Shown in pieces: positions 5,679 to 28,256 of a DNA stretch of 28,696 bases. The notes beneath the pieces are model-generated. The model had not been told where the DNA came from. It saw only the letters and a list, made by a program, of their open reading frames with translations, and did no database searches. A program made the translations under genes and the position numbers. Source of the stretch: an uncultured Oscillospiraceae bacterium (GTDB lineage: Bacteria; Bacillota; Clostridia; Oscillospirales; Oscillospiraceae); assembly GCA_934569045.1 (NCBI GenBank), contig CAKTJX010000032.1, positions 1-28,696 on the forward strand. Reading direction: 5' to 3'. Numbering within the stretch: position 1 is the stretch's first letter; the number at the start of each line of letters is the position of its first letter.

Positions 5679-6553
5679 CCCAGAGCCTCCTTGATGGTAT
5701 CGATATTGCGGTACATGGCGTCAAAATAGCTGTCTCCCGCCATGGCCATGTCCAGAACGGCTTCCTTCGCACCGGTCTCCCGGCAGAGAATTTCCGCCGC
5801 GGAGGTGCTGCCGTTTTTCTCCACAAATACGGCGGGCAGATCATGGCCCCGGACCAGCTGGATGAGCCCGATCAGCTCCTTTGCGGAGGCCTCGCTGCCG
5901 GATTCCTCCTCCACCGCCGCCAGAATATCCAGGTCAAAGGCCTGGGCAAAGTAAGAAAACCCATCATGGAAGGTGATGAGCTCCCGACAGCTAAGCTGGG
6001 AGAGCGTATCCTGCCCATATTGCTCCAGCGCGTCCAGCTGGGCGAGCAGGGACGTTAGATTTTCCGCAAACCGGTCCGCCCGCTCCGGGTATGCCTTGCT
6101 TAACCCATTGCAGATATTCTGTGCCATGATCTTTGCGTTGGCAGGGGAGAGCCAGATGTGGGGGTCCCACTCGTGATCATGCCCGTCCCCATCGTGGGGA
6201 TGTTCGTGCTCCCCGTGTTCCTCGCCCTCCAGCAGCGCAATGCCCTGGGAGGCGTCAATGGCCGGTTTTCCATCCAGGATGCCGTCCATAAAGTCCTCCA
6301 GCCCCGCACCGGACAGGACGATGAGCTCCGCCTGCTCTGCCTGCCGCACCTGATTTACATTCAGGGAGTAGTCATGCAGGCAGGAGACGGACTCCGTAAT
6401 CAGCCGCCCCACAGTCAGGTCCGTTCCCTGGCACAGGGCCTGGGTGAACTGGTAGACCGGCAGGGTGGTGGCGGCAATGTCCACGGTTTCCGTGGACCGG
6501 GCGCACCCGCTGAGTAGCAGAAGCAGCCCCAATAGAATCGCAGATTTTTTCAT
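5675..6553 (-). CDS. znuA: zinc/manganese ABC transporter substrate-binding lipoprotein
   Basis: About 292 residues, cluster A-I solute-binding protein. A lipobox (LLLLLSGC) places the lipidated cysteine at residue 17. A histidine- and acid-rich loop with repeated EHEH, PHDGDGHDHE elements lies near the middle, followed by WDPHIWLSP and later ITFHDGFSYFAQAF. These provide the usual metal-binding histidines; such a loop is more typical of zinc than manganese binders. ATG 6553 is chosen because AGGTG lies about eight bases upstream; a GTG at 6562 is in frame but less likely. The gene begins only 18 bases from an inverted-repeat element (6572-6751), so its promoter is not obvious. Confidence 0.92.
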   Translation of the reverse strand: MKKSAILLGLLLLLSGCARSTETVDIAATTLPVYQFTQALCQGTDLTVGRLITESVSCLHDYSLNVNQVRQAEQAELIVLSGAGLEDFMDGILDGKPAIDASQGIALLEGEEHGEHEHPHDGDGHDHEWDPHIWLSPANAKIMAQNICNGLSKAYPERADRFAENLTSLLAQLDALEQYGQDTLSQLSCRELITFHDGFSYFAQAFDLDILAAVEEESGSEASAKELIGLIQLVRGHDLPAVFVEKNGSTSAAEILCRETGAKEAVLDMAMAGDSYFDAMYRNIDTIKEALG

Positions 6554-7399: not shown

Positions 7400-7819
7400 T
7401 TATGCCAGAGCCTCGCCCAGGCTGCGGCAGCTTGCCAGCGCGTCGTCATCGGGCTGCTCCTGGCAGATGACGCTGTCGCAGGCCAGGTTGGCGCCCTTGG
7501 CCTGGCAGGTTTCCTCCCAGGTGCGCATCCACTCGCCGTCGCCCCAGCCGTAGGAGCCGAACAGGGCAATCTTCTTGCCGGAGAGCTTGGCCTCGCAGCC
7601 CTCAAACATGGGGGCAAACTCCGTATCCTCCAGCTCCTCCGCGCCCATAGCGGGGCAGCCGAAGGCAACCGCGTCAAAGGCATCCATCTGGTCAGCATCA
7701 AATTCTGTGGCGGTCAGCAGAGAAACCTCCGCGCCTGCCTTTTTGGCACCCTCGGCCACAGCCTGGGCCATGGCCTCGGTGTTGCCGGTGCTGCTCCAAT
7801 ATACAACTGCAATTTTCAT
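7400..7819 (-). CDS. flavodoxin
   Basis: About 139 residues, the usual length of a short-chain flavodoxin. It starts MKIAVVYWSSTGNTEAMA, where SSTGNTE is the FMN phosphate-binding loop, followed by AFGCPAMGAEELED and LFGSYGWGDGEWM, the two flavin-flanking loops. It carries electrons in the cytoplasm and in many bacteria replaces ferredoxin when iron is scarce. Two starts are possible: ATG 7819 fits family N-termini, and ATG 7828, nine bases earlier, lies very close to the AAAGGA ribosome binding site. Upstream on the same strand are a MITE-like element and a DUF3793 gene, with a promoter carrying paired palindromes at 8760-8844. Confidence 0.9.
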   Translation of the reverse strand: MKIAVVYWSSTGNTEAMAQAVAEGAKKAGAEVSLLTATEFDADQMDAFDAVAFGCPAMGAEELEDTEFAPMFEGCEAKLSGKKIALFGSYGWGDGEWMRTWEETCQAKGANLACDSVICQEQPDDDALASCRSLGEALA

Positions 7820-7848
7820 AATGGTCATTTTCCTTTCTTGTGTACCTT

Positions 7849-8069
7849 GGGAACCTCTGAATAAATCGTCCGCGGCTGGAGAGCGGATCTTTTTCGCCCA
7901 CTCTTCAACATCAAAAGCAGGAAATATTGCGCAACCGTTGCCAGTGAAAACTGGCTTACGGATGCGGCATACCCCTTGCGGGTACATCCAGTATTCCTCT
8001 GCTTTTGATGCTTCGATCGGTCAAAAAATCTCTCGCTCCCAGCCCTTGTCGATTGAATCATAGGTTCCC
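7849..8069. repeat. 221-bp MITE-like inverted-repeat element
   Basis: The ends are GGGAACCTCTGAATAAATC (7849) and the inverse of GGGAACCTATGATTCAATC (ending 8069), matching at about 16 of 19 positions. The similarity between the two arms continues inward for roughly 65 bases, including a shared ATCAAAAGCA block (7910 and the inverse near 7999). The centre holds a GCCAGT/ACTGGC hairpin. No transposase is encoded. It begins five bases beyond the stop of the DUF3793 gene and ends about 20 bases before flavodoxin, so it appears inserted between two genes of one unit. Confidence 0.75.
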
Positions 8070-8074
8070 TTATA

Positions 8075-8620
8075 TCAACCGGCTACAGTGAGCCGTTCGA
8101 TGTCTGTTCCGTTGGCAAGCTGGCGGCAGTAGACCCGGGTGCACTTTTTGTACAGGGCAAAAGTCTTCCGGGCCGCCTCTTCGTTTTCGTAGACCTTCCA
8201 GCAGCCAACGCATTTGCAGGGCTTCCGCTCCATAAATCCCAGCACATCCTCCGGGGGATAGCTGAGGAACAGCCCGATCTCGTGGGGAAAGTCCCCCGTC
8301 TGCCGGAGCTTTCTGGCAAGCTGGGTCAGGCACCGGTTGGCATCGCAGCAGCCATAGCCGCAGCGGCTCAGCAGCGCCGCGGACAGCTCTTTGGACAGGT
8401 CGGCTTCCAGCTTGGCGGGCCGGTAGAGATAGATCAGGGCCTTTTCCTGGGAAAACCGCAGGGGCAGCGCCCGGATGCCCTTGGGGCCCAGGCGTTTGTT
8501 CAGCTGCCGCAAGGATTCCAGCAGGGCTTCCTTCGTCTCATAGGGGCAGGTGAAGAGATTCCCGGTTTTCAGTCCCGCCAGGGTTGGGGCACAGTTGCGT
8601 ACTAGCAGCTCTTCAGACAT
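8075..8620 (-). CDS. DUF3793 family protein
   Basis: About 181 residues. Features resembling DUF3793 are an early CAPTLAGLKTGNLF segment, LRQLNKRLGPKGIRALPL, ALIYLYRPAKLE, and the FPHEIGLFLSYPPEDVLGFM segment followed by KCVGCWKVY and a C-terminal helical YKKCTRVY. The family is common in gut Clostridia and its function is not known; genes of this kind are often seen near iron-uptake or flavodoxin genes. ATG 8620 is preferred (GAGGGA about nine bases upstream) over the longer open frame, and it overlaps the end of the small membrane peptide gene by eight bases. Several cysteines (CGYGCCDANRC, CKCVGC) could bind metal, which is inference. Confidence 0.8.
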   Translation of the reverse strand: MSEELLVRNCAPTLAGLKTGNLFTCPYETKEALLESLRQLNKRLGPKGIRALPLRFSQEKALIYLYRPAKLEADLSKELSAALLSRCGYGCCDANRCLTQLARKLRQTGDFPHEIGLFLSYPPEDVLGFMERKPCKCVGCWKVYENEEAARKTFALYKKCTRVYCRQLANGTDIERLTVAG

Positions 8621-8738
8621 GGCCCGTCCCTCTGCCCCAGGTCCGACGGAGAAAATGCCGCAGACCGAAGGAACCAAAGAGAATCAGACCAATGCTTAGA
8701 AGGGCGCTGACAAAGGACAGCAAGCGAACCAATTCCAT
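8613..8738 (-). CDS. 41-residue membrane peptide
   Basis: A short frame with an excellent AGGAGG ribosome binding site eight bases before ATG 8738. It encodes a helix rich in Leu, Ile and Phe (LLSFVSALLSIGLILFGSFG) followed by a basic tail (LRHFLRRTWGRGTGHV), as expected for a single-pass membrane peptide with a cytoplasmic positive end. Its stop overlaps the start of the DUF3793 gene, so the two are probably translated in series. It is the first gene behind the promoter at 8816-8844. I know of no named family. Confidence 0.65.
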   Translation of the reverse strand: MELVRLLSFVSALLSIGLILFGSFGLRHFLRRTWGRGTGHV

Positions 8739-8759
8739 AATCGAACCTCCTATGCAAAT

Positions 8760-8775
8760 GTTAGCTTACGCTAAC
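8760..8775. promoter_or_regulatory. operator-like palindrome, distal copy
   Basis: GTTAGC-TTAC-GCTAAC, a perfect 6-base dyad in the 5' leader, about 22 bases before the membrane peptide start. It has the same half-sites as the copy at 8793-8808; the centres are 33 bases apart, about three helical turns. Confidence 0.7.
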
Positions 8776-8792
8776 TGCTGGTTTAAATTTAA

Positions 8793-8808
8793 GTTAGCCT
8801 TTGCTAAC
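8793..8808. promoter_or_regulatory. operator-like palindrome, promoter-proximal copy
   Basis: GTTAGC-CTTT-GCTAAC, starting seven bases downstream of the -10 box, so it should cover the transcription start. TTAG/CTAA half-sites recall those of DtxR-family metal regulators (IdeR, MntR), although the central spacing differs from the classic DtxR box. The regulator is therefore an inference. Confidence 0.7.
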
Positions 8809-8815
8809 TGACAAC

Positions 8816-8844
8816 ATCATACACGATGCGTCCCAATTTGTCAA
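8816..8844 (-). promoter_or_regulatory. sigma-A promoter of the peptide-DUF3793-flavodoxin unit
   Basis: Minus-strand TTGACA (8839-8844), 17-base spacer, TATGAT (8816-8821), followed directly by the two palindromes. Confidence 0.85.
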
Positions 8845-8897
8845 GTCCTTTTTCCTACTGTTTTGTAGGGATAATTTTTGACGATTTGAACGCAAAA

Positions 8898-8930
8898 GTG
8901 GCGCGCCGCAAACGAAACGCGGCGCACCAC
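8898..8930 (-). terminator. probable terminator after birA
   Basis: Bases 8898-8909 and 8919-8930 form a 12-bp GC-rich stem. The one plus-strand mismatch becomes a G-U pair in minus-strand RNA, favouring that strand. The following T-tract is short (TTTTGCGTT), so strength is uncertain. Confidence 0.65.
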
Positions 8931-8952
8931 ATTATCTTATCCCAAAAAAGGA

Positions 8953-12127: not shown

Positions 12128-12156
12128 TTGACCTGATTCCGAAAATCTGCTATAAT
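12128..12156 (+). promoter_or_regulatory. promoter of the M29 aminopeptidase gene
   Basis: TTGACC (12128-12133), 17-base spacer, TATAAT (12151-12156), about 35 bases before the start codon. Only six bases separate its -35 box from that of the divergent gene. Confidence 0.85.
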
Positions 12157-12191
12157 GTCCCGAAGTACCTGAAAGAAAAGGAGAATACAGC

Positions 12192-13415
12192 ATGAAAAAA
12201 ACTGTTCTGCGGGAGTATGCCCGCCTGATTGTTCGCAGTGGTGTCAATGTCCAGAAGGGCCAGGAGGTCATGATCTATGCGGACCTGGACCAGCCGGAAT
12301 TCGTCCAGATGGTGGTGGAGGAGGCCTACAAGGCCAAAGCCAAAAAGGTGACCGTGGAGTGGAATTACCAGCCTCTGACCAAAATCCATACCCGCTACCG
12401 CTCCGTCACCACCATGGGCACGGTGGAGGAGTGGGAGAAGGCGCAGCAGCAGCACTACTGCGATGTGGTGCCCTGCCGCATCCACCTGATCTCCGAGGAC
12501 CCGGACGGTCTGAAGGGCATCAATATGGAAAAGCTGGTCAAGTCCCGCCGTATGCGCTATCCCATCCTGAAGCCCTACAAGGATCAGCTGGAGAACCAGC
12601 AGCAGTGGTGCATTGCCGCCGTCCCCGGCGCTGCCTGGGCCCGGAAGGTATTCCCCGGCGAGCGCACCAGCACCGCTGTGGAAAAGCTCTGGCAGGCCAT
12701 CCTGGATGCCTCCCGGGTTACGGAGGACCCCATTGCCGCCTGGCAGGCCCATGATCAGGATTTGCAGGCCCGCTGCGACTATCTGAACGGCCTGGGCATC
12801 TGCTCTCTGCATTATACGGCGGACAACGGTACGGATTTCACCGTGGGCATGATTCCCGAGGGCCGCTTCTGCGGCGGCGGCGAGACCGCCCGCACCGGCA
12901 TCTTCTTCAACCCCAATATCCCCACGGAGGAGTGCTTCGTCTCTCCCAAGCGGGGCGAGGCCGAGGGCATTGTCTACGCCACCAAGCCCCTGAGCTACCG
13001 GGGCCAGCTGATCGAGGGCTTCTCCATCCGCTTTGAAGGCGGCAAGGCTGTTGAAGTCCACGCCCAGTCCGGCGAGGAGCTGCTGAAGTCCATGATCTCC
13101 ATGGATGAGGGCGCGGCCTACCTGGGCGAGTGCGCCCTGGTACCCCAGGCCAGCCCCATTGCCCAGAGCGGCCTGCTGTTCTATAACACCCTGTTTGATG
13201 AAAATGCCGCCTGTCATCTGGCCCTGGGCATGGGCTTCCCGGATACCATTGCGGACTTCCAGAATAAGTCCTTGGAGGAGTGCCGGGCGCTGGGCATCAA
13301 TGACTCCATGATCCACGAAGACTTTATGATCGGCTGCGACAGCATGCATATTGACGCGGTCTGCGCCGATGGCTCCGTAAAGCCGATTTTCCGGAACGGA
13401 AACTGGGCGTTTTAA
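12192..13415 (+). CDS. M29-family metalloaminopeptidase
   Basis: 407 residues, the usual length of AmpS/PepS-type thermophilic aminopeptidases, cytoplasmic dimers that release N-terminal amino acids from peptides. The N-terminal domain begins VLREYARLIVRSGVNVQKGQ, typical of the family. Likely metal ligands occur in PTEECFVSPKRGEAEGIV, in FYNTLFDENAACHLALG and in the C-terminal HEDFMIGCDSMHIDAV, the family's HxDFMIG signature. AAGGAG lies eight bases upstream of the ATG. It is a single-gene unit between a divergent gene and rpmE. Confidence 0.9.
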   Translation: MKKTVLREYARLIVRSGVNVQKGQEVMIYADLDQPEFVQMVVEEAYKAKAKKVTVEWNYQPLTKIHTRYRSVTTMGTVEEWEKAQQQHYCDVVPCRIHLISEDPDGLKGINMEKLVKSRRMRYPILKPYKDQLENQQQWCIAAVPGAAWARKVFPGERTSTAVEKLWQAILDASRVTEDPIAAWQAHDQDLQARCDYLNGLGICSLHYTADNGTDFTVGMIPEGRFCGGGETARTGIFFNPNIPTEECFVSPKRGEAEGIVYATKPLSYRGQLIEGFSIRFEGGKAVEVHAQSGEELLKSMISMDEGAAYLGECALVPQASPIAQSGLLFYNTLFDENAACHLALGMGFPDTIADFQNKSLEECRALGINDSMIHEDFMIGCDSMHIDAVCADGSVKPIFRNGNWAF

Positions 13416-15786: not shown

Positions 15787-15806
15787 AGCGTGAAAGGGTG
15801 AACTCT

Positions 15807-16820
15807 ATGACGGTACGGGAAGAATTGGAACGTTTGGAGCATCGGCGGCTGAATCCGCTGGCGGCCTTTTCGGACCGCTCCTCCGGCCGCCCCAGGCCGG
15901 AGCCGGAGCGGGAGGAGGACGTGCGCACCTGCTACCAGCGGGATACGGACCGGGTAGTGCACAGCAAGGCTTTCCGGCGGCTGATGCACAAGACCCAGGT
16001 GTTCCTCCGTCCGGAGGGAGACCACTACCGTACCCGCATGACCCATACCCTGGAGGTTACCCGCATTGCCAAAACCATCACCCGGGCCCTGGGACTCAAT
16101 GAGGATCTGGCGGAGGCCGTCGCCATGGGGCATGACCTGGGCCATACCCCCTTCGGCCACGCCGGAGAGGCGGCCCTCACCGCCTGCTGGGGCAAGCCCT
16201 TCCGCCACAATGAGCAGAGCCTGCGGGTGGTGGACGTGCTGGAAAAGGACGGCCAGGGGCTGAACCTCTGCAACGAGGTCCGCATGGGCATCCTGGGCCA
16301 TACGGGCCCCTACATCCCGGAGACCCTGGAGGGCCAGATTGTCCGCCGGTCAGACCAGATTGCCTATGTGAACCACGACATTGACGATGCCATCCGGGCG
16401 GGAATCCTGACCCCGGAGGATATCCCCAGGGATATTGCCGCCATCCTGGGAGAGAACCAGCGGGACCGGATCAATACCCTGGTCTGCGATATGATCCGCA
16501 CCTCCCGGGAGGCAGGGGCCATCTGCATGACCCCCAAGGTGGAAAAAGGACTGGCGGACCTGCGCAGCTTTATGTTTGAGCGGGTCTATCATAACCCCAT
16601 CGCCAAGGGCGAGGAGAGCAAGGCCAAGGCCATGCTCCAGCGGCTCTTTGACTACTATGTGGCCCACCCGGAGCGCCTGCCGGAGGATTTTCAGCCCCAG
16701 CTGTCCTTTGAGGGCATCGGCCGGACGGTCTGCGACTATATCGCCGGCATGACGGATAACTACGCCGTGGGAAAATTTACAGAGATTTTCGTCCCCACCG
16801 GCTGGAATGTTCGGGGATAA
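15807..16820 (+). CDS. dgt: dGTPase-like HD-domain phosphohydrolase
   Basis: About 337 residues. HD metal-binding motifs are visible as RTRMTHTLEV, AVAMGHDLGHTPFGHAGE and, later, RRSDQIAYVNHDIDDA. These are the hallmarks of deoxyguanosinetriphosphate triphosphohydrolase-like proteins, which release triphosphate from dNTPs. Start ATG 15807 follows AAAGGGTG at about six bases; a GTG at 15798 is in frame but overlaps that ribosome binding site. In Clostridia this gene is commonly placed just before dnaG, as here. True substrate preference is not visible from sequence. Confidence 0.92.
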   Translation: MTVREELERLEHRRLNPLAAFSDRSSGRPRPEPEREEDVRTCYQRDTDRVVHSKAFRRLMHKTQVFLRPEGDHYRTRMTHTLEVTRIAKTITRALGLNEDLAEAVAMGHDLGHTPFGHAGEAALTACWGKPFRHNEQSLRVVDVLEKDGQGLNLCNEVRMGILGHTGPYIPETLEGQIVRRSDQIAYVNHDIDDAIRAGILTPEDIPRDIAAILGENQRDRINTLVCDMIRTSREAGAICMTPKVEKGLADLRSFMFERVYHNPIAKGEESKAKAMLQRLFDYYVAHPERLPEDFQPQLSFEGIGRTVCDYIAGMTDNYAVGKFTEIFVPTGWNVRG

Positions 16821-16871: not shown

Positions 16872-18617
16872 ATGCCGTTTCCACCGGCATTTCTGGATGA
16901 GCTGGCGGCCAGAAACCCGATCGAAGAGGTGGTAGGTCAGTATGTGAATCTGAAGCGCTCCGGGTCCAATCTCTTCGGCCTGTGCCCCTTCCATGGGGAG
17001 AAGACGCCCTCCTTTTCCGTAGCGCCGGATAAGGGCATTTTCTACTGCTTCGGCTGCCACAAGGGCGGCAGCGTCATCAATTTCGAGATGGAAATTGAGG
17101 GCCTCAGCTATCCGGACGCGGTGCGGGCACTGGCCCAGCGGGCCGGGATGGAGGTGCCGGATGACGAGCTCTACCAGAGCCGTTACCGCCAGCAGGAGCG
17201 GCTGTGGGCCCTCTCCAAAGAGGCGGCCCGGTTTTTCGTATCCCAGCTCTATGCCCCCGCCGGGGCAGAGGGGCTCCAGTATGCCATCAAGCGGGGCATG
17301 AGCAAGAACACCCTGACCCGCTTCGGCATCGGCTTTGCCCCGAACAGCTGGAGCAGCCTGTGCGATGCCATGCGCGCCAAAGGCTATACGGATGAAGAAC
17401 TCAGGGACGCGGGCCTGGTGTCCGTCTCCCAGAAGAACGGAACCATCTATGACCGGTTCCGCAACCGGCTCATGTTTCCCATCATCGATGTCCGGGGCAA
17501 TGTCATCGGCTTTGGCGGGCGGGTCATGGACGATTCCACCCCAAAATACCTGAACTCCCCGGAGACGGTGATTTTCAACAAGCGGAAAAACCTCTTTGCC
17601 CTGAACATCGCTAAGAAGTCCAAGCTGGGCTATCTGATCCTGGTGGAGGGATACATGGATGCCATCGCCCTGCACCAGTACGGCTTTGACTGCGCCGTGG
17701 CCTCTCTGGGCACCTCTTTGACAGAGGAGCACGCCACGCTGCTGTCGCGGTACACAGACCAGATCACCCTGATCTACGATGGGGACGAGGCAGGCCAGAA
17801 CGCCACCCGGCGGGCCATCCCCATGCTGGAGAAGGCGGGCTTGCAGGTCAAGGTTCTGCAAATGCGGGATGCCAAGGACCCGGACGAATACCTGAAGAAA
17901 TTCGGAGCGGACAAGTTCCGCGTTCTCCTGGAGGAATCCTCCAACCGGGTGGAGTATCAGCTCCGGGCTATCCAGCGCAAGTATGATTTAAAACTGGACG
18001 AGGACCGGGTCAAGTTTATCGGCGAGGCGGCGGAGTTCCTCAGCAGCCTTGGGAACGCGGTTCAGCGGGAAATTTACGGCACCCGTGTGGCGGAGGCCGC
18101 CGGAATTTCCACGGATGCCATGAAGATTGAGGTTACCAAGGCCTTCAAGCGCCGCACCGCCCGGGAAAAGCGGAAGCAGGAGCACATTGATCTGGCCCCT
18201 GCCATTGCGGTTCAGCCCAAGAGCCGCACCATTCACTATGACAATGTGAAATCCGCCATGGCGGAGGAGACGGTGATTGCCCTGTGCCTGCGGGACCCGG
18301 CCATGATCCGGGAGGCGGGGAGCCTCCGCCCGGAGGTCTTTTCGTCCCCGCTGCTGGGCCGGGTTTTCGGCCAGCTTTTGGAGCAGGACAGTCAGGGTAT
18401 GGCCCCGTCTCTCACGGGCCTGACGGATTTTACCGGGGAGGAAATGGCCCATATTGCCGGAATCCTCCAGAGAAATACAAACCCCGTGTCGGACCAGGCC
18501 ATGCGTGACAGCATTGCCGTGATCCGGCAGATGCACCAGTTCAAAACAGCCGGCTCTGACGATGACCTGATGGCATTGCAGCGCAAACTACAGGAAAGTA
18601 AAGGGATCAAAGCATGA
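16872..18617 (+). CDS. dnaG: DNA primase
   Basis: 581 residues. The N-terminal CHC2 zinc finger has C38, H41, C59 and C62 in LCPFHGEK and YCFGCHKGG. The catalytic core has GFGGRVMDDSTPKYLNSPET, the TOPRIM motifs LVEGYMDAIAL (near residue 260) and IYDGDEAGQNATRRA, and an AKDPDEYLKKFG segment. The C-terminal helicase-binding region is present but not strongly conserved by eye. It makes RNA primers for replication. Its stop overlaps the next start (ATGA), so dnaG and two sigma-like genes form one coupled unit, a version of the macromolecular synthesis operon. Confidence 0.96.
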   Translation: MPFPPAFLDELAARNPIEEVVGQYVNLKRSGSNLFGLCPFHGEKTPSFSVAPDKGIFYCFGCHKGGSVINFEMEIEGLSYPDAVRALAQRAGMEVPDDELYQSRYRQQERLWALSKEAARFFVSQLYAPAGAEGLQYAIKRGMSKNTLTRFGIGFAPNSWSSLCDAMRAKGYTDEELRDAGLVSVSQKNGTIYDRFRNRLMFPIIDVRGNVIGFGGRVMDDSTPKYLNSPETVIFNKRKNLFALNIAKKSKLGYLILVEGYMDAIALHQYGFDCAVASLGTSLTEEHATLLSRYTDQITLIYDGDEAGQNATRRAIPMLEKAGLQVKVLQMRDAKDPDEYLKKFGADKFRVLLEESSNRVEYQLRAIQRKYDLKLDEDRVKFIGEAAEFLSSLGNAVQREIYGTRVAEAAGISTDAMKIEVTKAFKRRTAREKRKQEHIDLAPAIAVQPKSRTIHYDNVKSAMAEETVIALCLRDPAMIREAGSLRPEVFSSPLLGRVFGQLLEQDSQGMAPSLTGLTDFTGEEMAHIAGILQRNTNPVSDQAMRDSIAVIRQMHQFKTAGSDDDLMALQRKLQESKGIKA

Positions 18618-19489
18618 CAGAACTGACCGACAAAGATACCACCCAGCCCATCCCCGTGCCAACGGATGAGGACGATATCCGCCAGTACCTTCAGGAGATT
18701 CGCAGCTATCCCCGCCTGACCCCGGAGGAGGAGCGGGAGCTGGCCCGCCGCTGTGCCCAAGGCGATGAGGATGCCATCCGCCAGATGGTCAATTCCAATC
18801 TGCGCCTGGTGGTGTCCATTGCCAAGGAATACACGGGCCGGGGCGTGCCGCTGTTGGATCTGATCCAGGAGGGCAGCATCGGCCTGCTGGTGGCGGCCCG
18901 CAAATTTGATTATACCCGGGACTACCGGTTTTCTACATATGCCACTAAGTGGATTCGCCAGGGCGTGACCCGTTGCCTGCTGAATCACGCGGGCACCATC
19001 CGGGTGCCGGTGCACACGGCGGAGCGGATGCGCAAAATTCAGGCGGCCCAGTCCTATCTGCGTCAGCAGAACGGCACGGAGCCCACGGCGGAGGAGATCT
19101 CTGCTCGGGTGGACCTGCCCAAGGAGAAGGTGGAGGAGCTGCTGCAGCTTGCCCCGGATATCTGCTCTCTGGACGTGCCTACGGGTGACGGCGACAAGGG
19201 CACTCTGGGCACCCTCCTGGAGGATATGGAAGCGCCCCAGCCCCAGGAGGAGCTGGTACGCAAGGAGCTGACAGACATGATGGATCGGCTCCTGGACTCC
19301 TTAACGCCCCGGCAGCAGACTATTCTGCGGCTGCATTTCGGCATGGAGGACGGCAAATGCCATTCCTTGGAGGAGATCGGCCAGCAGCTGGGCATTTCCA
19401 AGGAGCGGGTGCGCCAGGTGGAAAAGCAGGCTATGGATAAGCTGCAGGCCATGGGCACCAGCATGGGATTGGAGGATTTTCTGGAATGA
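18614..19489 (+). CDS. sigma-70 family factor, SigA-like, without region 1.1
   Basis: 291 residues. Region 1.2 is DIRQYLQEIRSYPRLTPEEE, region 2.1-2.2 includes NLRLVVSIAKEYTGRGVPLL and DLIQEG (82-87), and region 2.3-2.4 is FSTYATKWIRQGVTR (106-120). Region 3 ends in DICSLDVPTGDGDKGTLG, the 3.2 finger. Region 4.2 is HSLEEIGQQLGISKERVRQV, keeping the residues used on TTGACA-type -35 boxes. The order and position after dnaG match RpoD/SigA, but region 1.1 is missing and the usual double tryptophan of region 2.3 is Lys-Trp (112-113). It may be the primary factor in short form or a group 2 paralogue. It ends in a four-base overlap with the next gene. Confidence 0.85.
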   Translation: MTELTDKDTTQPIPVPTDEDDIRQYLQEIRSYPRLTPEEERELARRCAQGDEDAIRQMVNSNLRLVVSIAKEYTGRGVPLLDLIQEGSIGLLVAARKFDYTRDYRFSTYATKWIRQGVTRCLLNHAGTIRVPVHTAERMRKIQAAQSYLRQQNGTEPTAEEISARVDLPKEKVEELLQLAPDICSLDVPTGDGDKGTLGTLLEDMEAPQPQEELVRKELTDMMDRLLDSLTPRQQTILRLHFGMEDGKCHSLEEIGQQLGISKERVRQVEKQAMDKLQAMGTSMGLEDFLE

Positions 19490-20523
19490 ACGAATTGGAT
19501 ATTTCCTTTGAGGACCGGCCCTGGGAGCTGTATCTGAATACCCGGCAGCCCGGTGACCGGGTTTCCGCCGCCCATCTTCTGACCCTTCTGGAGCAGGAGA
19601 CGGAGGACGCGGTGGAGGATGCCTTTGCGGCCCTGGAGGACCGGGCCCTGGAGCTGGACATCTCCCAGCTGCCTGCCAAGCAGTACCAGGGCCAGGCCGC
19701 GCTGCGGCTGCGCCAGGAAGAAGAGCTGGCTAAGAAGGGCATGGATGCTTCCAGCCTGAACCCCAATGATCCCCTGCGGCTGTACCTGGAGGAGATCGCC
19801 CAGTTCCCGGCAGACGGCGACCAGGAGGCCCTGGCCCGCCGGGCAGCCCGGGGCGAGGAACAGGCGGCGGAGCAGCTGATGAACCTGGGGCTCCACCGGG
19901 TGACGGAGCTGGCCTCCGAGTTTGTGGGCTATGGCGTTCTCCTGATGGACCTGATCCAGGAGGGCAGCCTTGCTCTGTGGCAGGCCATCCAGGCCGGGGG
20001 AGAGGACTACGCCGCCCGCCGGGATGCCGCCATCCGGGGCGCTATGGCAAGAGCTGTGACCTTGCAGGCCCGGCAGCAGGGCGTGGGGCAGAAGATGCGC
20101 CAGGCCATGGAGGACTACCGGGCGGTGGACGAGCGGCTGCTCTCCGAGCTGGGCAGAAATGCCACCCTGGAGGAGATTGCTCTGGAAATGCATATGACCC
20201 CGGAGGATGCGGAGACGGTCCGCAGAGTCCTGGAGGATGCCCGCATGCTCCAGCGGGCCACGGCGGCCCCTCAGGAGCAGACGAAGGAAGAGGAAGACCA
20301 GGCCGTGGAGGATACCGCCTATTTCCAGATGCGCCAGCGCATTACGGAGCTGCTCAGCGTGCTTTCCGAGCAGGACGCGGAGCTGCTGACCCTGCGCTTC
20401 GGCCTGGAAAAGGGTCTGCCCCTGACCCCGGAGGAGACCGGCAAACGCTTAGGGCTCACTGTAGATGAGGTGGTCGCCCGGGAGGCAAAGGCTTTGGCTC
20501 TGCTGCGGCAGGAAGAAAAATAA
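19486..20523 (+). CDS. degenerate sigma-70-like protein with a region 1.1-like N-terminus
   Basis: 345 residues. Residues 24-63 (RVSAAHLLTLLEQETEDAVE onward) resemble sigma region 1.1. DPLRLYLEEIAQFP (95-108) is region 1.2, and EFVGYGVLLMDLIQEGSLAL with DLIQEG at 155-160 is the core-RNA-polymerase-binding region 2.2. From residue 171 the aromatic promoter-melting segment (FSTYATxW in sigma) is replaced by DYAARRDAAIRGAMAR, and the 4.2 recognition helix reads LTVDEVVAREAKALALL without the usual Arg/Gln contacts. It looks like a sigma factor that could bind core polymerase but not read promoters. The frame is open and codon use is like its neighbours, so it is not a decayed pseudogene. Function is unknown. 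Confidence 0.75.
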   Translation: MNELDISFEDRPWELYLNTRQPGDRVSAAHLLTLLEQETEDAVEDAFAALEDRALELDISQLPAKQYQGQAALRLRQEEELAKKGMDASSLNPNDPLRLYLEEIAQFPADGDQEALARRAARGEEQAAEQLMNLGLHRVTELASEFVGYGVLLMDLIQEGSLALWQAIQAGGEDYAARRDAAIRGAMARAVTLQARQQGVGQKMRQAMEDYRAVDERLLSELGRNATLEEIALEMHMTPEDAETVRRVLEDARMLQRATAAPQEQTKEEEDQAVEDTAYFQMRQRITELLSVLSEQDAELLTLRFGLEKGLPLTPEETGKRLGLTVDEVVAREAKALALLRQEEK

Positions 20524-20554: not shown

Positions 20555-21235
20555 ATGGACAAGAAAATCTCCGTGGCCATTGACGGCCCCGCCGGTGCCG
20601 GAAAGAGCACCATTGCCCGCCGCTTGGCAGCGGATCTGGGCTATCGATATGTGGATACCGGTGCCATTTACCGCACCGTTGCCTATTTTATGGATCTGTG
20701 GGGTGTCAGCCCCAAGGATGTGGACGGAGTCAACCGCTACATTGATGAGTTGACCGTGGGCATTGAATATGATGACGACGGACAGCAGCACATGATCATG
20801 AACGGCATGGACGTGACGGCGGATATCCGCACTCCGGAAATCGCCCAGAAGGCCAGCCTGATCTCCGCCCACGCGGTGGTGCGGGAGGTGCTGCTGGATA
20901 TGCAGCGGGAGATGGCGGAAAAGTACGATGTGATCATGGATGGCCGGGATATCGGCTCTGTGGTGCTGCCCAAAGCCACCGTCAAGATTTTCCTCACAGC
21001 TTCCCCGGAGGTCCGGGCCAACCGCCGCTGCAAGGAACTCCAGGAGAAGGGCCAGAAGGTCAATTACGAGAAAATCCTGAAGGACATTCAGCAGCGGGAC
21101 TACCAGGATACCCACCGGGACATTGCTCCCCTGAAAATGTGCCGGGACTCCGTGAAGGTGGACACCTCCGACATGACCCTGGAGGAGTCCATGGCGGCCA
21201 TTCGGAAGATCATTGAGGAGAAGCTTTCCAGATGA
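20555..21235 (+). CDS. cmk: cytidylate kinase
   Basis: 227 residues. AIDGPAGAGKSTIARRLA is the P-loop, followed by LGYRYVDTGAIYRTVAY, the CMP-binding segment, MDGRDIGSVVLPKA in the middle, and RRCKELQEKGQ plus RDYQDTHRDIAPL in the lid. It phosphorylates CMP and dCMP. ATG 20555 follows GAGGAAAAG; the open frame continues upstream but lacks family similarity. Its stop overlaps the ispH-rpsA start by four bases, the arrangement usual for Clostridia. Confidence 0.95.
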   Translation: MDKKISVAIDGPAGAGKSTIARRLAADLGYRYVDTGAIYRTVAYFMDLWGVSPKDVDGVNRYIDELTVGIEYDDDGQQHMIMNGMDVTADIRTPEIAQKASLISAHAVVREVLLDMQREMAEKYDVIMDGRDIGSVVLPKATVKIFLTASPEVRANRRCKELQEKGQKVNYEKILKDIQQRDYQDTHRDIAPLKMCRDSVKVDTSDMTLEESMAAIRKIIEEKLSR

Positions 21236-23172
21236 GTGTGCGCGTGGCGAAAAGCGCCGGCTTCTGTTTCGGCGTCAGCCGGGCTGTGGAGCTGGTTCAG
21301 TCCTCCGCGGCGGCAGGGAAGCGCACGGTGACCCTGGGCCCCATCATCCATAACCGCCATGTGGTCAAGGCCTTCCAGGAGGCCGGTGTAGGGGTGATCA
21401 ACACCCCGGAGGAGGCCCGGGCGGGGGACACGGTGATCATCCGCTCCCATGGCGTGGGCCGGCAGGTCTATGCTGCCCTGGAGGCGCGGGGCGCGGAAAT
21501 CGTGGATGCCACCTGCCCCTTTGTCAAACGGATTCACGGCCTGGTAAGCCAGGCGGAGCAGGAGGGGCGCCTGCCCATCATCATCGGCACGCCAACCCAC
21601 CCGGAGGTGGAAGGCATCGCCGGATGGTGCCGGGACTGCCGCATCTTTGATAGTGCAGAATCACTAAAAAAATGGGCCATTGAAGAACAAATTGATGCGG
21701 ACTTGCCAATTTGCATGGTTTGCCAGACAACTTCCACTGAAAGTTTGTGGAAATTATGCAGAAATTTTGCAAAAAAACAGTTTACTAACTTGAAAATATT
21801 TGATACAATATGTAAGGCGACTGAGGATAGGCAAACCGAGGCGGCAAGTTTAAGCCGCCAGTGCCAGGCCATGGTGGTGGTTGGAGATGCCAAAAGCTCC
21901 AATACCGGCCGTCTGGCCATGATTTGCCGCGAATACTGCGACCGTGTAGCTCTTGTTGACGATGCCAGCGAACTGGAGCCCGCGTTTTTCGCCGGTATCA
22001 CTGATGTTGGAATCACGGCCGGTGCGTCCACACCGGCGTGGATTATAAAGGAGGTCAACAAGACTATGAGCGAAATTACCAATGTTGAGGCTGTACAGGA
22101 GGAGAACTTTGCAGAGCTTCTCGAGCAGTCCATCAAGACTTTAAATACAGGAGACAAGGTTATCGGCACCGTTACCGGAATCGGCAATACCGAGGTCCAG
22201 GTAGACCTGGGCACCAAGCATGCCGGTTACATTCCTTATGATGAAGTCAGCACCGATCCCACTGTAAAGCCCGAGGATATCCTGAAGGTTGGCGACCAGA
22301 TCGAGGTTTTCGTGGTCCGCGTCAACGACCAGGAGGGCACCGTGCAGCTGTCCAAGAAGAAGCTGGACGGCCTGAAGGTTTGGGATGAGATGGCCGACTA
22401 CGTGGAGAACAAGACCACCATCGACGCCGTCATCACCGAGGAGAACAAGGGCGGCCTGGTTGCCAATGTGAAGGGCGTCCGGGTGTTCATCCCCGCTTCT
22501 CAGTCTGGCGTTGCCAAGGGCGGCGATATGGCTGCTATGGTTGGCAAGCCTGTCCAGCTGAAGATCACCGAGGTCAACCGTGCCCGCCGTCGTGCCATCG
22601 GCTCCATCCGTGCCGTGAACGCCGAGACCCGCAAGGCCGCTCAGGAGAAGATCTGGAGCGAGATCGAGGTCGGCAAGAAGTACCACGGCGTTGTGAAGTC
22701 CCTGACTTCCTATGGCGCTTTCGTGGATATCGGCGGTGTGGACGGCATGGTCCATGTCTCCGAGCTGAGCTGGAACCGGATCAAGACTCCCGCCGATGTT
22801 GTGAAGGTCGGTGACGAGATCGACGTTTATGTGATCTCCTTCGACCCTGAGAAGCACAAGATCTCTCTGGGCTACAAGACCGCTGAGATGAACCCCTGGA
22901 ACCAGTTCATGACCAACTACGCTGTTGGTGATGTTGTGGATGCCAAGGTTGTGAAGCTGATGACCTTCGGTGCCTTTGCGGAGATTCTGCCCGGCGTTGA
23001 CGGCCTGATTCACATTTCCCAGATCGCTGATCGCCGCATCGGCAAGCCCGAGGATGTCCTGTCCGAGGGTCAGGATGTGAAGGTCAAGATCACCGATATC
23101 GACGCTGAGAACAAGCGTATCTCCCTGTCCATCCGCGCTCTGCTGGAGGACGGCGAAGAGGACGCTGAGTAA
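21232..23172 (+). CDS. ispH-rpsA: HMBPP reductase fused to ribosomal protein S1
   Basis: 646 residues, a known Clostridia fusion. Residues 1-278 are IspH, the last enzyme of the MEP isoprenoid pathway, with iron-sulfur cysteines C12 (AGFCFGV), C95 (DATCPFV) and C194 (DTICKATEDRQ). The TTSTE motif sits at 167-171. Residues 279-646 contain four S1 RNA-binding repeats, beginning KVIGTVTGIGNTEVQVDLG, then about 393, 480 (YHGVVKSLTSYGAFVDIGGV) and 565 (VDAKVVKLMTFGAFAEILPGV). The S1 half shows a codon choice typical of highly expressed genes. An in-frame ATG at 22066 behind AAAGGAGGT could allow separate synthesis of S1. Residues about 138-208 are encoded by unusually AT-rich DNA. Confidence 0.95.
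   Translation: MSVRVAKSAGFCFGVSRAVELVQSSAAAGKRTVTLGPIIHNRHVVKAFQEAGVGVINTPEEARAGDTVIIRSHGVGRQVYAALEARGAEIVDATCPFVKRIHGLVSQAEQEGRLPIIIGTPTHPEVEGIAGWCRDCRIFDSAESLKKWAIEEQIDADLPICMVCQTTSTESLWKLCRNFAKKQFTNLKIFDTICKATEDRQTEAASLSRQCQAMVVVGDAKSSNTGRLAMICREYCDRVALVDDASELEPAFFAGITDVGITAGASTPAWIIKEVNKTMSEITNVEAVQEENFAELLEQSIKTLNTGDKVIGTVTGIGNTEVQVDLGTKHAGYIPYDEVSTDPTVKPEDILKVGDQIEVFVVRVNDQEGTVQLSKKKLDGLKVWDEMADYVENKTTIDAVITEENKGGLVANVKGVRVFIPASQSGVAKGGDMAAMVGKPVQLKITEVNRARRRAIGSIRAVNAETRKAAQEKIWSEIEVGKKYHGVVKSLTSYGAFVDIGGVDGMVHVSELSWNRIKTPADVVKVGDEIDVYVISFDPEKHKISLGYKTAEMNPWNQFMTNYAVGDVVDAKVVKLMTFGAFAEILPGVDGLIHISQIADRRIGKPEDVLSEGQDVKVKITDIDAENKRISLSIRALLEDGEEDAE
22047..22068 (+). promoter_or_regulatory. 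internal ribosome binding site and ATG at the IspH/S1 junction
   Basis: AAAGGAGGT (22047-22055) precedes an in-frame ATG (22066-22068, residue 279) by 10 bases. It falls exactly where the IspH domain ends and the S1 part begins. The same bases encode Lys-Glu-Val, which is common in IspH, so chance is possible. Confidence 0.5.
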
Positions 23173-25793: not shown

Positions 25794-27221
25794 CTATTGT
25801 GTGACGGTAATGGTCCCGCTGATCATGCCCATCCAGCAGATGTATTGGTAGCTGCCCGGTTCCCGCGGGGTGAATTCAATGACGTTTTCACCGGGCTGAA
25901 AGCTGTATTCCAGCCCGAGGCTGCGGCAGAGAATGCGATTGTTGCAGCCGTTGATCTCCTCCGGGGATGCCTGGACAATCCAGCGGACGGGAATGCCGGC
26001 CTGCACCTGGATATCCGGATAAGCACCGGACTGAAGCAAGGTGCCTAAGGTCTGGTATCCATCTTCAGAAACCGCTGCCCGGACTGCTGTTTGCGCGGTG
26101 CCGGGCAATCGTGCCGAAGCTATGGCGAACGCAAGCAGGCAGGCTGCCCCCAGGAGGAGCAGCGGGCTGCAGAGATCGGTTTTCGGCCATTGATAGAGGA
26201 GTAATGCGGTGAAGAGACCGAGGGTTGCGCAGAACAGCTGCCGGGCCGTAAAGAGTCCGGCCAGTGCGCCGCCCTGACTGACCATTCCAAGTCCCAGAAC
26301 GCAGACAAAAATCGAGCCGCCCAGCAGCACATTTTTGGTGTATTTCTGTCCCAGAAGGCCAACCAGGGAGCCGAAGCAGAGCATCAGCGGCATGGTGCCC
26401 AGGGCGAACGCGGCCATGCTCAGGCCGCCGCTCCAGGGGCTACCGCTGGCCAAAGCCAGAAGCTGCATGCTCTGCAGGGGGCCGCAGGGCATCAGACCGT
26501 TCAGAAGGCCAAACCCAAAGGGGGAGAGCGGCCCCTTGAAATGGGGCAGTCTGCGGTGCAGGGTCCGAAAACGGGGTAGGAAATCCAGCATATTCAGGCC
26601 CATAAAGATCATCGCGCAGCCTGCAATCAGTTTTACTGTTCCCTGAAGCGTATAAGAAATTCCCAGGGATACACCTTCCAGCAGCATCCCAAGGGTTCCC
26701 AGCAAAGCGCCGATGATCGTATAAGACAGAAGCCGCCCCAGGTTATAGAGAACGGTGCTGCTGCCTGGGGAGGCGGACTCCCGAAGCCCGGATAGATTCT
26801 GCGACAGACTGATGCCGCCGCACATGGCGATGCAGTGTACAGAGGTCAGCAGCCCTGTAAGAAAAAGCGCGCCATAGCCCATAGAGCTGTCCGACAGCTG
26901 GGAGGGCACGAGAAGATTCAGGATACCAAAATGCTCCAGCAGCGCGAAGAGTGCCAAAATTGCGGCGATGGGCCACAGAATGGCAAAAGGGCTTTTGCGA
27001 AAGGGCTGCATCGAAGCACTGTATCCAGCCTCCTGAATGACCTTGCAGAGTGCCTGAACGGTGATTCGGCTGCCATCATAGTGCACCAGCGCCGTACCTT
27101 TGGAATAGGATACGGATGCGTCCAAAACCGCATCCACTCGCTCCAGTGCGGACTGAATGCGGGCGGCGCAGCTGGCACAGTGCATTCCAACTATGTAGAG
27201 CGTGACGGATTGTGAATTCAT
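25794..27221 (-). CDS. HMA - TauE/SafE-type membrane - cupredoxin-like fusion protein
   Basis: 475 residues in three parts. Residues 1-70 are a heavy-metal-associated domain with GMHCASCAARI. Residues about 80-385 contain roughly eight to ten membrane helices of the TauE/SafE-UreH_2 type, with HCIAMCGG and LMPCGPLQSMQLLALASGS, the cysteine-bearing helices seen in DsbD-like electron or metal transporters. The last 85 residues form a cupredoxin-like domain ending YICWMGMISGTITVTQ, where Cys and Met could bind copper. Such fusions are found in Firmicutes and are usually linked to copper or mercury handling. A perfect promoter with two dyads lies upstream (27239-27286). Confidence 0.82.
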   Translation of the reverse strand: MNSQSVTLYIVGMHCASCAARIQSALERVDAVLDASVSYSKGTALVHYDGSRITVQALCKVIQEAGYSASMQPFRKSPFAILWPIAAILALFALLEHFGILNLLVPSQLSDSSMGYGALFLTGLLTSVHCIAMCGGISLSQNLSGLRESASPGSSTVLYNLGRLLSYTIIGALLGTLGMLLEGVSLGISYTLQGTVKLIAGCAMIFMGLNMLDFLPRFRTLHRRLPHFKGPLSPFGFGLLNGLMPCGPLQSMQLLALASGSPWSGGLSMAAFALGTMPLMLCFGSLVGLLGQKYTKNVLLGGSIFVCVLGLGMVSQGGALAGLFTARQLFCATLGLFTALLLYQWPKTDLCSPLLLLGAACLLAFAIASARLPGTAQTAVRAAVSEDGYQTLGTLLQSGAYPDIQVQAGIPVRWIVQASPEEINGCNNRILCRSLGLEYSFQPGENVIEFTPREPGSYQYICWMGMISGTITVTQ

Positions 27222-27380: not shown

Positions 27381-28256
27381 TTACAGCGCATGCCCAAGCA
27401 GATACCAGATAATGAGAAATCCCGGTAGCAGCGGCAGGTAGGCCGGCAGGGCGGAGGGGCTGATTTGAATGATCAGGAAGTTAAACCGGTCCATGGCGTA
27501 GAACACGCCGCAGAGGATGCCCGTGGACAGTACGGACTTGGTAACCTGACGGCCAATCAGATTGGAGAAAAAGAAGGTATAGATACCGCCCAGAATGGGA
27601 TTCACCACCGTCAGGAAAATGCCCAGCACCAGCTTGAAGAGCCCCAGCAGCAGAAAGCACAGCAGTACGATCAGCAGCACCGCCGGGGCATGATAGGCAA
27701 GGGTCGCGGGCAGATACTTTGCGATGGCCCAGTTGGCGGCCACATGGAGCCCCATGGCCAGGATCACGCTGAGGAACCGGGACAAAAACCAGGTGACAGG
27801 ATTGTCCCCCTCCGGCAGCACAGCGTCCACCAGGTTGACCACAAACGCCAGGAGAATCAGAGACAGGATCTGACTGCACAGCGTCTCAAAGGGTGTCCCC
27901 CGGAAGGGCAGCACGAAGAGATAATCCTGCACAAAGGTGACAAAGGGCAGGGGAGAGACCAGCTTTTCAAGTCCCTCGGGCTGGAAGGCGTAGACAATGA
28001 CCGTCAGCACATACACCGTCAGAATTCCGGCGGAGGAGGAGAGGGCGTGGTTCAGATCCGACCGATTGCCGAAAATCAGCTTGGTCACCACGCCTACACC
28101 CAGCAGCGCCGCAACAAAGATGAGAATAAACTTCAGGGAAGCGCCGATGTCAAAGGTGGTGGGAATGGCAGACGCGGCCGTTTTGAGAATTTCTCCCAGA
28201 TCATCGGGAAGATACTGCTTTGCGGCAGCAAGAATAGAGTTCAGGTCCAGTTCCAT
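27381..28256 (-). CDS. polytopic membrane protein of unknown function
   Basis: 291 residues with about six or seven hydrophobic helices, including LKFILIFVAALLGVGVVTKL, AGILTVYVLTVIVYAF and LLIVLLCFLLLGLFKLVLGI. A loop near residue 150 reads VDAVLPEGDNPVTWFLSRF. I do not recognise a family; no ATP-binding, catalytic or transporter signature stands out. AAAGGT lies nine bases upstream of ATG 28256. It lies 135 bases downstream of rplL on the same strand, beyond a terminator, and no clear promoter of its own was seen in the gap, so read-through or a weak promoter may drive it. Confidence 0.7.
   Translation of the reverse strand: MELDLNSILAAAKQYLPDDLGEILKTAASAIPTTFDIGASLKFILIFVAALLGVGVVTKLIFGNRSDLNHALSSSAGILTVYVLTVIVYAFQPEGLEKLVSPLPFVTFVQDYLFVLPFRGTPFETLCSQILSLILLAFVVNLVDAVLPEGDNPVTWFLSRFLSVILAMGLHVAANWAIAKYLPATLAYHAPAVLLIVLLCFLLLGLFKLVLGIFLTVVNPILGGIYTFFFSNLIGRQVTKSVLSTGILCGVFYAMDRFNFLIIQISPSALPAYLPLLPGFLIIWYLLGHAL

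Follow-up and report, generated by a model that had tools for sequence, protein, structure and literature searches.

A sigma-70 relative without promoter contacts, encoded with a short sigma factor behind dnaG in gut Clostridia

Sigma factors direct bacterial RNA polymerase to start sites. Their regions 2.2 and 4.1 are the two docking surfaces on the core enzyme, while W433, the first tryptophan of the WW dyad, has a role in promoter melting. Among described systems, two are close to the locus presented here. PhyR of the alphaproteobacterial general stress response has the fold of a sigma factor but controls a genuine one instead of initiating transcription itself (PMC4598750, PMC8103513), and its promoter and core contacts are both described as degenerate (PMC8103513). 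In SigO-RsoA of B. subtilis, the domains are split between two proteins, with sigma4 in SigO and sigma2 in RsoA (PMC8103513, PMC10028694). The first-pass annotation of the present DNA knew of no described system of this kind. This stands for the exact arrangement, while sigma mimics in general do have precedents in PhyR and SigO-RsoA; a description of this gene pair was not found in the open-access literature among the matches listed.

Gene order and pairing at the dnaG locus

The window, i.e., the whole stretch of DNA that was analysed (28,696 nucleotides from an uncultured Oscillospiraceae bacterium), carries six genes on one strand:

15798..16820, + strand: HD-domain phosphohydrolase, Dgt-like (Pfam HD and HD_assoc), first gene of the conserved neighbourhood
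16872..18617, + strand: dnaG, DNA primase (Pfam DNAG_N, Zn_ribbon_DnaG and Toprim)
18614..19489, + strand: partner (short) sigma factor of 291 aa (Pfam regions 1.2, 2, 3 and 4), without region 1.1
19486..19489, + strand: ATGA, in which the stop codon of the sigma gene and the start codon of the sigma-like gene overlap
19486..20523, + strand: promoter-blind sigma-like protein of 345 aa, a real and conserved open reading frame
20555..21235, + strand: cmk, cytidylate kinase (Pfam Cytidylate_kin), downstream neighbour of the sigma-like gene
21232..23172, + strand: ispH (LytB) fused to S1 repeats (Pfam LYTB and S1), downstream neighbour

The first of these genes (Dgt denotes a dGTPase) occupies the same position in those matched relatives of the locus that are long enough to include it. 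Just as the 3' end of dnaG overlaps the partner sigma gene by 4 bases, the latter overlaps the sigma-like gene by four, as the first-pass annotation had read; from this overlap, translation of the two sigma-type proteins appears to be coupled. Elsewhere in the window, a heavy-metal-associated domain is fused to a DsbD-like membrane region (25797-27221, - strand; Pfam HMA and DsbD_2), and two long open reading frames of 399 and 291 aa (12153-13349 and 27384-28256, both - strand) are without Pfam match.

In a profile search of 5.8 billion proteins, 6554 of the 8000 candidates reached E 1e-40 or better, 120 of these being listed. A Pseudoflavonifractor sp. record contains a copy with 75% identity. 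One named source of a homologue is Pseudoflavonifractor sp. MSJ-30, and the loci L001-L013 are labelled Oscillospiraceae, Clostridia or Eubacteriales. The gene was found in 5 of 394 genomes sampled from the order, in 4 of 200 from the family, and in 69 of the 119 nearest relatives, so that only a minor fraction of the order possesses it. Originally, 71 relatives passed the threshold, and two of them, G254 and G276 (172 bits; all others 236 or more), were set aside; the match in G254 is its dnaG-linked SigA. One further relative (G607) has neither the short sigma nor the sigma-like gene.

Both genes travel together. The short sigma was found in 68 of the 119 relatives and, judged by coordinates, the sigma-like gene adjoins it on the same contig and strand in 66 of them. 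The two exceptions are breaks at contig ends: in G610 the pair lies on different contigs with both matches at or near their ends, and in G602 the contig stops two bases past the sigma match. Conversely, no sigma passed the threshold in two genomes that do possess the sigma-like gene; in one (G219) a 48% identical sigma adjoins this gene, in the other (G225) a contig end interrupts the sigma. At the level of separate loci, a sigma lies directly upstream in 43/45 and is itself preceded by dnaG in 42/43, the remaining one (L052) being cut by a contig end. The gene order dnaG, sigma, sigma-like gene, which the first-pass annotation had proposed to map among homologues, thus holds in these loci. 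As for the two loci lacking an upstream sigma, L012 is cut by a contig end, and in L007 just the 62 codons at the 3' end of the sigma gene are left ahead of the sigma-like gene (5834-6001), with unrelated sequence beyond them; this break may be a contig chimera or a real rearrangement. Downstream, cmk follows in 41/45 loci; two are cut by a contig end, and L074 and L075 truly lack it at this place. With starts picked by script as those nearest to the aligned start, the sigma-like gene begins at -4 (26 loci), -8 (12), -1 (3), +24 (1) or +35 (1) bases relative to the sigma stop in the 43 loci, and hence at or inside the stop of its partner in 41 of them.

Kinship and anatomy of the sigma-like protein

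By descent, the sigma-like protein belongs to the sigma-70 family. Its best NCBIfam profile is RpoD NF006666 (E 2.9e-35), whose curated cut-off of 572 bits is missed by the protein itself (122 bits) and also by the partner sigma (304 bits). It matches SigA chains with E 1.2e-32 and is 30% identical to the adjoining short sigma over 255 columns. Sigma regions 1.2 to 4.2 are present in order, both by sequence and in a predicted sigma fold with a mean pLDDT of 87.4, so that the kinship claimed at first stands; whole-chain comparison gave an rmsd of about 17 Å and a TM of about 0.3 because the domains are placed differently. Homologues are named sigma factor, sigma factor-like or hypothetical in their sources, and such names can mislead. 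The protein is acidic, which alone says little, since SigA is nearly as acidic (mean net charge -24.4 against -26.8 in the sigma-like family and -8.1 in the short sigma).

The following regions can be traced along the protein:

19507..19674, + strand: region 1.1-like N-terminal domain, residues 8-63 (hhalign, shuffle control, predicted fold and its matches)
19765..19815, + strand: region 1.2-like segment, residues 94-110, alignment columns 400-416 (Pfam only E 0.46)
19948..19965, + strand: region 2.2 core-binding motif DLIQEG, residues 155-160
19996..20070, + strand: counterpart of regions 2.3-2.4, residues 171-195, in which those for -10 reading and melting are lost
20080..20181, + strand: rebuilt 3.0-3.1 helix, residues 199-232, with family-specific conservation
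20254..20310, + strand: acidic linker replacing the sigma finger (3.2), about residues 257-275
20311..20409, + strand: region 4.1-like segment, residues 276-308, strongly conserved within the family
20422..20520, + strand: counterpart of region 4.2, residues 313-345, in which those for -35 reading are lost

Conservation was counted in 44 sigma-like members and 42 short sigmas against 56 SigA. Six repeat loci, L012 (a partial protein of 196 aa) and L052 (sigma cut to 79 aa) were left out beforehand, and L014 (Bacteroidales) was excluded from the SigA counts. The N-terminal domain spans 63-98 residues in the 44 members. For the isolated domain, B. subtilis SigA region 1.1 (5mww, 9a58) provided the top matches of a second aligner, at a low Z of 4.4-5.2, while 9a58 reached only rank 26 in Foldseek; the Pfam region 1.1 model did not match the protein or its family members among the matches listed.

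Further along the chain, docking and DNA-reading residues part ways. The equivalents of the core contacts D403, Q406 and E407 are kept in 44, 44 and 42 of the 44 members, in line with the initial claim of a retained core-binding motif, and homologues are of full length. In contrast, the residues for melting and for the -35 element are gone, as also stated at first: the equivalent of Y430 is Y in 2/44, W433 and W434 are W in 34% and 38%, and no member has R at the R584 or R588 position (0/44, one member ending before it). The F427 position is F or Y in 88%, and the M413 position bears Trp in 93%. Contacts to the -10 element (2.3/2.4) and to the -35 element (4.2), on which promoter-specific initiation depends, are lost. 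Beyond what was noticed at first, the 3.2 finger is lost as well, its place being taken by the linker with a pLDDT <50 at residues 262-275, and regions 3.0 and 4.1 bear conserved motifs of their own.

The sigma-like family keeps the following shares of SigA-invariant positions (short sigma in brackets): 95% (90%) in region 3.1, which comprises 3 columns, 70% (82%) in 2.2, 47% (63%) in 1.2, 46% (85%) in 2.1, 42% (68%) in 4.1, 38% (47%) in 2.4, 37% (51%) in 4.2, 17% (73%) in 2.3, 13% (46%) in 3.0 and 10% (70%) in 3.2. Such percentages alone cannot tell a promoter reader from a non-reader, because the short sigma keeps just 46-51% in 2.4, 3.0 and 4.2; at the level of sequence, single contact residues do separate the two. 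Within the family, column identity peaks in 2.2 (0.80) and 4.1 (0.77). The mean in 4.1 exceeds that of the partner sigma (0.71), while in 4.2 the order is reversed (0.68 vs 0.77).

With its docking residues retained and its DNA contacts lost, the protein looks like a factor that binds core but is blind to promoters. However, anti-sigma factors, too, bind sigma2 at the surface conserved here, and the core-facing regions beyond 2.2 are only partly SigA-like, so affinity for core may be low or another partner may be served.

We know of no anti-sigma factor with a sigma fold, which speaks against a role as anti-sigma factor or chaperone in direct contact with the partner sigma, as does the conservation of DLIQEG, which such a role would not need. 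The overlap and the constant pairing would fit, and genes for anti-sigma factors are described as often co-transcribed with their sigma gene (PMC4598750); nevertheless, we consider such a function very unlikely.

Alternatively, the protein might be a sigma mimic that frees the short sigma (or SigA) from an anti-sigma factor by titrating the latter, as PhyR does for EcfG, without acting on polymerase. DNA contacts lost from an intact fold and the new conserved surfaces in 3.0 and 4.1 are consistent with this, and PhyR serves as precedent (PMC4598750). However, a PhyR-like receiver was found neither among the 4 Pfam families matched by the protein of the window nor among the best 25 of 48 Pfam families for 62 members, and the length of the protein is filled by sigma-like regions and the N-terminal domain. 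A Pfam scan of 19 other open reading frames of the window (4 without any match) revealed no anti-sigma family. Furthermore, the core-binding residues are nearly invariant, whereas those of PhyR are described as degenerate (PMC8103513). Mimicry is thus quite unlikely in our view.

The partner sigma, the separate SigA and the origin of the pair

The short sigma has a mean of 15 residues before region 1.2 and no region 1.1 (42 homologues). Most other contacts in 2.3 and 4.2 are kept, while the position of W433 is Lys in 97% of the 42, which may make promoter melting stricter. At first sight it could be the sole primary-type sigma of its hosts; this was rejected, since a full-length SigA (open frame 388-455 aa) is encoded at another locus in 9/9 genomes of the clade, i.e., relatives of the genome of the window. 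Because this separate SigA exists, the role of housekeeping (primary) sigma probably does not fall to the 291-aa partner, a point that goes beyond the first-pass annotation. The unlinked SigA is 44-46% identical to the short sigma in the 9 genomes, and a LepA-like gene lies beside it in at least 5 of 7 loci inspected, one LepA being confirmed by Pfam; Pfam region 1.1 is present in the one copy checked. In one genome (G001), two full-length SigA genes stand in tandem at the unlinked locus (L079:6420-7601 and 7736-8935), besides the short sigma.

Outside the clade, the slot behind dnaG is held differently. Among 25 genomes without a sigma-like match, dnaG was found in 21, and in all 21 a longer SigA-type sigma, long enough for region 1.1, adjoins it (in L106 its far end lies beyond the stretch fetched); a match to the sigma-like gene above threshold was found in none of these 21. 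In the near relatives G223 and G230 neither gene of the pair was matched and no dnaG was detected. The unlinked SigA of the clade groups with a second SigA line of the outgroups (support 1.0), and three genomes (G040, G097, G116) possess both lines. Given dnaG-linked SigA in the outgroups and SigA elsewhere in the clade, the short sigma is therefore additional to SigA and occupies the slot that was ancestrally that of SigA. Two genes now share this slot, one for a sigma devoid of region 1.1 and one for a promoter-blind sigma with a region 1.1-like domain. In one outgroup genome (G253), two tandem SigA genes directly follow dnaG (L131:4835-7187), a possible parallel to the beginning of the pair.

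The origin of the sigma-like protein is harder to place. FastTree put it beside most dnaG-linked SigA with weak support (0.76, 0.75), and with more SigA in the tree it fell outside both SigA lines (0.67); a tree grouping it with the short sigma was not rejected (AU p 0.48). Because of long branches, both its SigA ancestry and its relation to the short sigma are unsure. The two proteins have 11 of 38 derived residues in common, where 3.4 are expected and 2 of 5000 permutations reach 11. These shared residues would favour either tandem duplication or common adaptation to the same core; in the duplication version, one copy would have lost region 1.1 and the other DNA reading. Tree distances of the sigma-like protein and its partner are correlated (partial r 0.33; 13 of 2000 permutations), although this is not specific, as cmk correlates more (0.48).

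Irrespective of its origin, the gene is under purifying selection, weaker than that on its partner: dN/dS ranges from 0.09-0.38 over 18 pairs and, in the five pairs with at least 83% identity and dS <1, from 0.087-0.163, compared to 0.046-0.079 for the short sigma. The matched stretch is free of stops in 65/69 genomes, with one stop each in G610, G616, G621 and G623. Full-length homologues, low dN/dS and few stops led us to reject a pseudogene or random truncation. The protein might nevertheless be a remnant of the ancestral dnaG-linked SigA, decaying or kept solely for operon spacing: it occupies the slot in which all 21 outgroup genomes with dnaG found have their SigA, and the four single stops would agree with this. 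Values of 0.09-0.16 in the closest pairs argue that the gene is not decaying, however, and together with the 65 intact genomes and the highly conserved new motifs they make this explanation extremely improbable. A gripping motif that is kept, DNA-reading parts that are lost, and selection on the whole suggest that the protein probably controls polymerase or the partner sigma rather than initiating transcription.

The complementary losses invite another thought. The short sigma is devoid of region 1.1, while the sigma-like protein keeps an N-terminal domain that is predicted to fold somewhat like region 1.1; the genes are constantly paired, and with Lys in place of W433 the partner may need help in melting. 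The sigma-like protein could then act with the short sigma at promoters as its obligate co-subunit and lend it, in trans, the 1.1-like domain or some contact, much as in SigO-RsoA, a two-subunit sigma that functions in B. subtilis (PMC8103513, PMC10028694). Yet the 2.2 docking motif is the same in both, so that they would compete for one site on one core. Since the short sigma also appears complete unaided (Pfam regions 1.2, 2, 3 and 4) and the rate correlation is not specific, we regard a two-subunit sigma as unlikely.

A proposed function and comparison with known systems

The explanation we prefer, with a probability of roughly 45%, is that of a core-polymerase-binding, promoter-blind paralogue of primary-type sigma factors that is made with its partner and gates core or tunes holoenzyme formation. 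Such a protein would dock on core RNA polymerase with region 2.2 on the beta-prime clamp helices and region 4.1 on the beta flap. It would carry an acidic region 1.1-like domain along, neither read nor melt promoters, and place no finger near the active site. Synthesized by coupled translation with a short, promoter-reading sigma without region 1.1, it may occupy or gate core polymerase and thereby tune the share of core left for the partner sigma and the separate SigA to capture. Core binding is what the retained docking residues would suggest, and inhibition or gating may be its effect. Regarding the roles offered in the first-pass annotation (polymerase-binding regulator, region 1.1 supplied in trans, anti-sigma factor or chaperone), none is singled out, while the promoter-blind sigma kinship and the overlap it reported hold. 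A more far-reaching version, in which a dnaG-linked primary sigma was split into a translationally coupled, obligate pair of a reader without region 1.1 and a promoter-blind, 1.1-bearing core occupier that regulates the reader's access, seems somewhat unlikely to us.

In this clade of gut Clostridia, a pair with one promoter-blind member replaces the dnaG-linked SigA. In such a protein, core binding would be naturally uncoupled from promoter reading within a single sigma fold, and the pair could serve as a natural test case for region 1.1 in trans. If the sigma-like protein binds core, sigma competition would be set by a built-in decoy or gate and not by a separate anti-sigma factor. If the split into such an obligate pair were true, one member would regulate the polymerase access of the other, a kind of sigma control of which our literature search found no description.

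How, then, does the protein relate to its described peers? Its N-terminal domain has its top matches in the second aligner with region 1.1 of B. subtilis SigA (5mww, 9a58) and sits in the collinear place; it differs in the low Z (4.4-5.2), the Foldseek rank (26 for 9a58) and the lack of a Pfam 1.1 match among the matches listed. With PhyR it has in common a sigma fold that lost promoter reading; however, PhyR is ECF-type and carries a receiver, whereas the sigma-like protein is primary-type, with core-binding residues kept and no receiver seen. As in SigO-RsoA, two sigma-derived proteins belong together, yet the sigma2/sigma4 split is absent: regions 1.2 to 4.2 occur in the partner and are spanned by the sigma-like protein as well. 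Compared to SigA/RpoD (group 1 sigma-70), it lacks the promoter contacts of 2.3, 3.0 and 4.2 as well as the finger and scores 122 bits against 572. Nevertheless, it is collinear with these factors from the 1.1-like domain to 4.2, possesses DLIQEG, has RpoD as its best profile and resides in the very genomic slot that SigA occupies in the outgroups.
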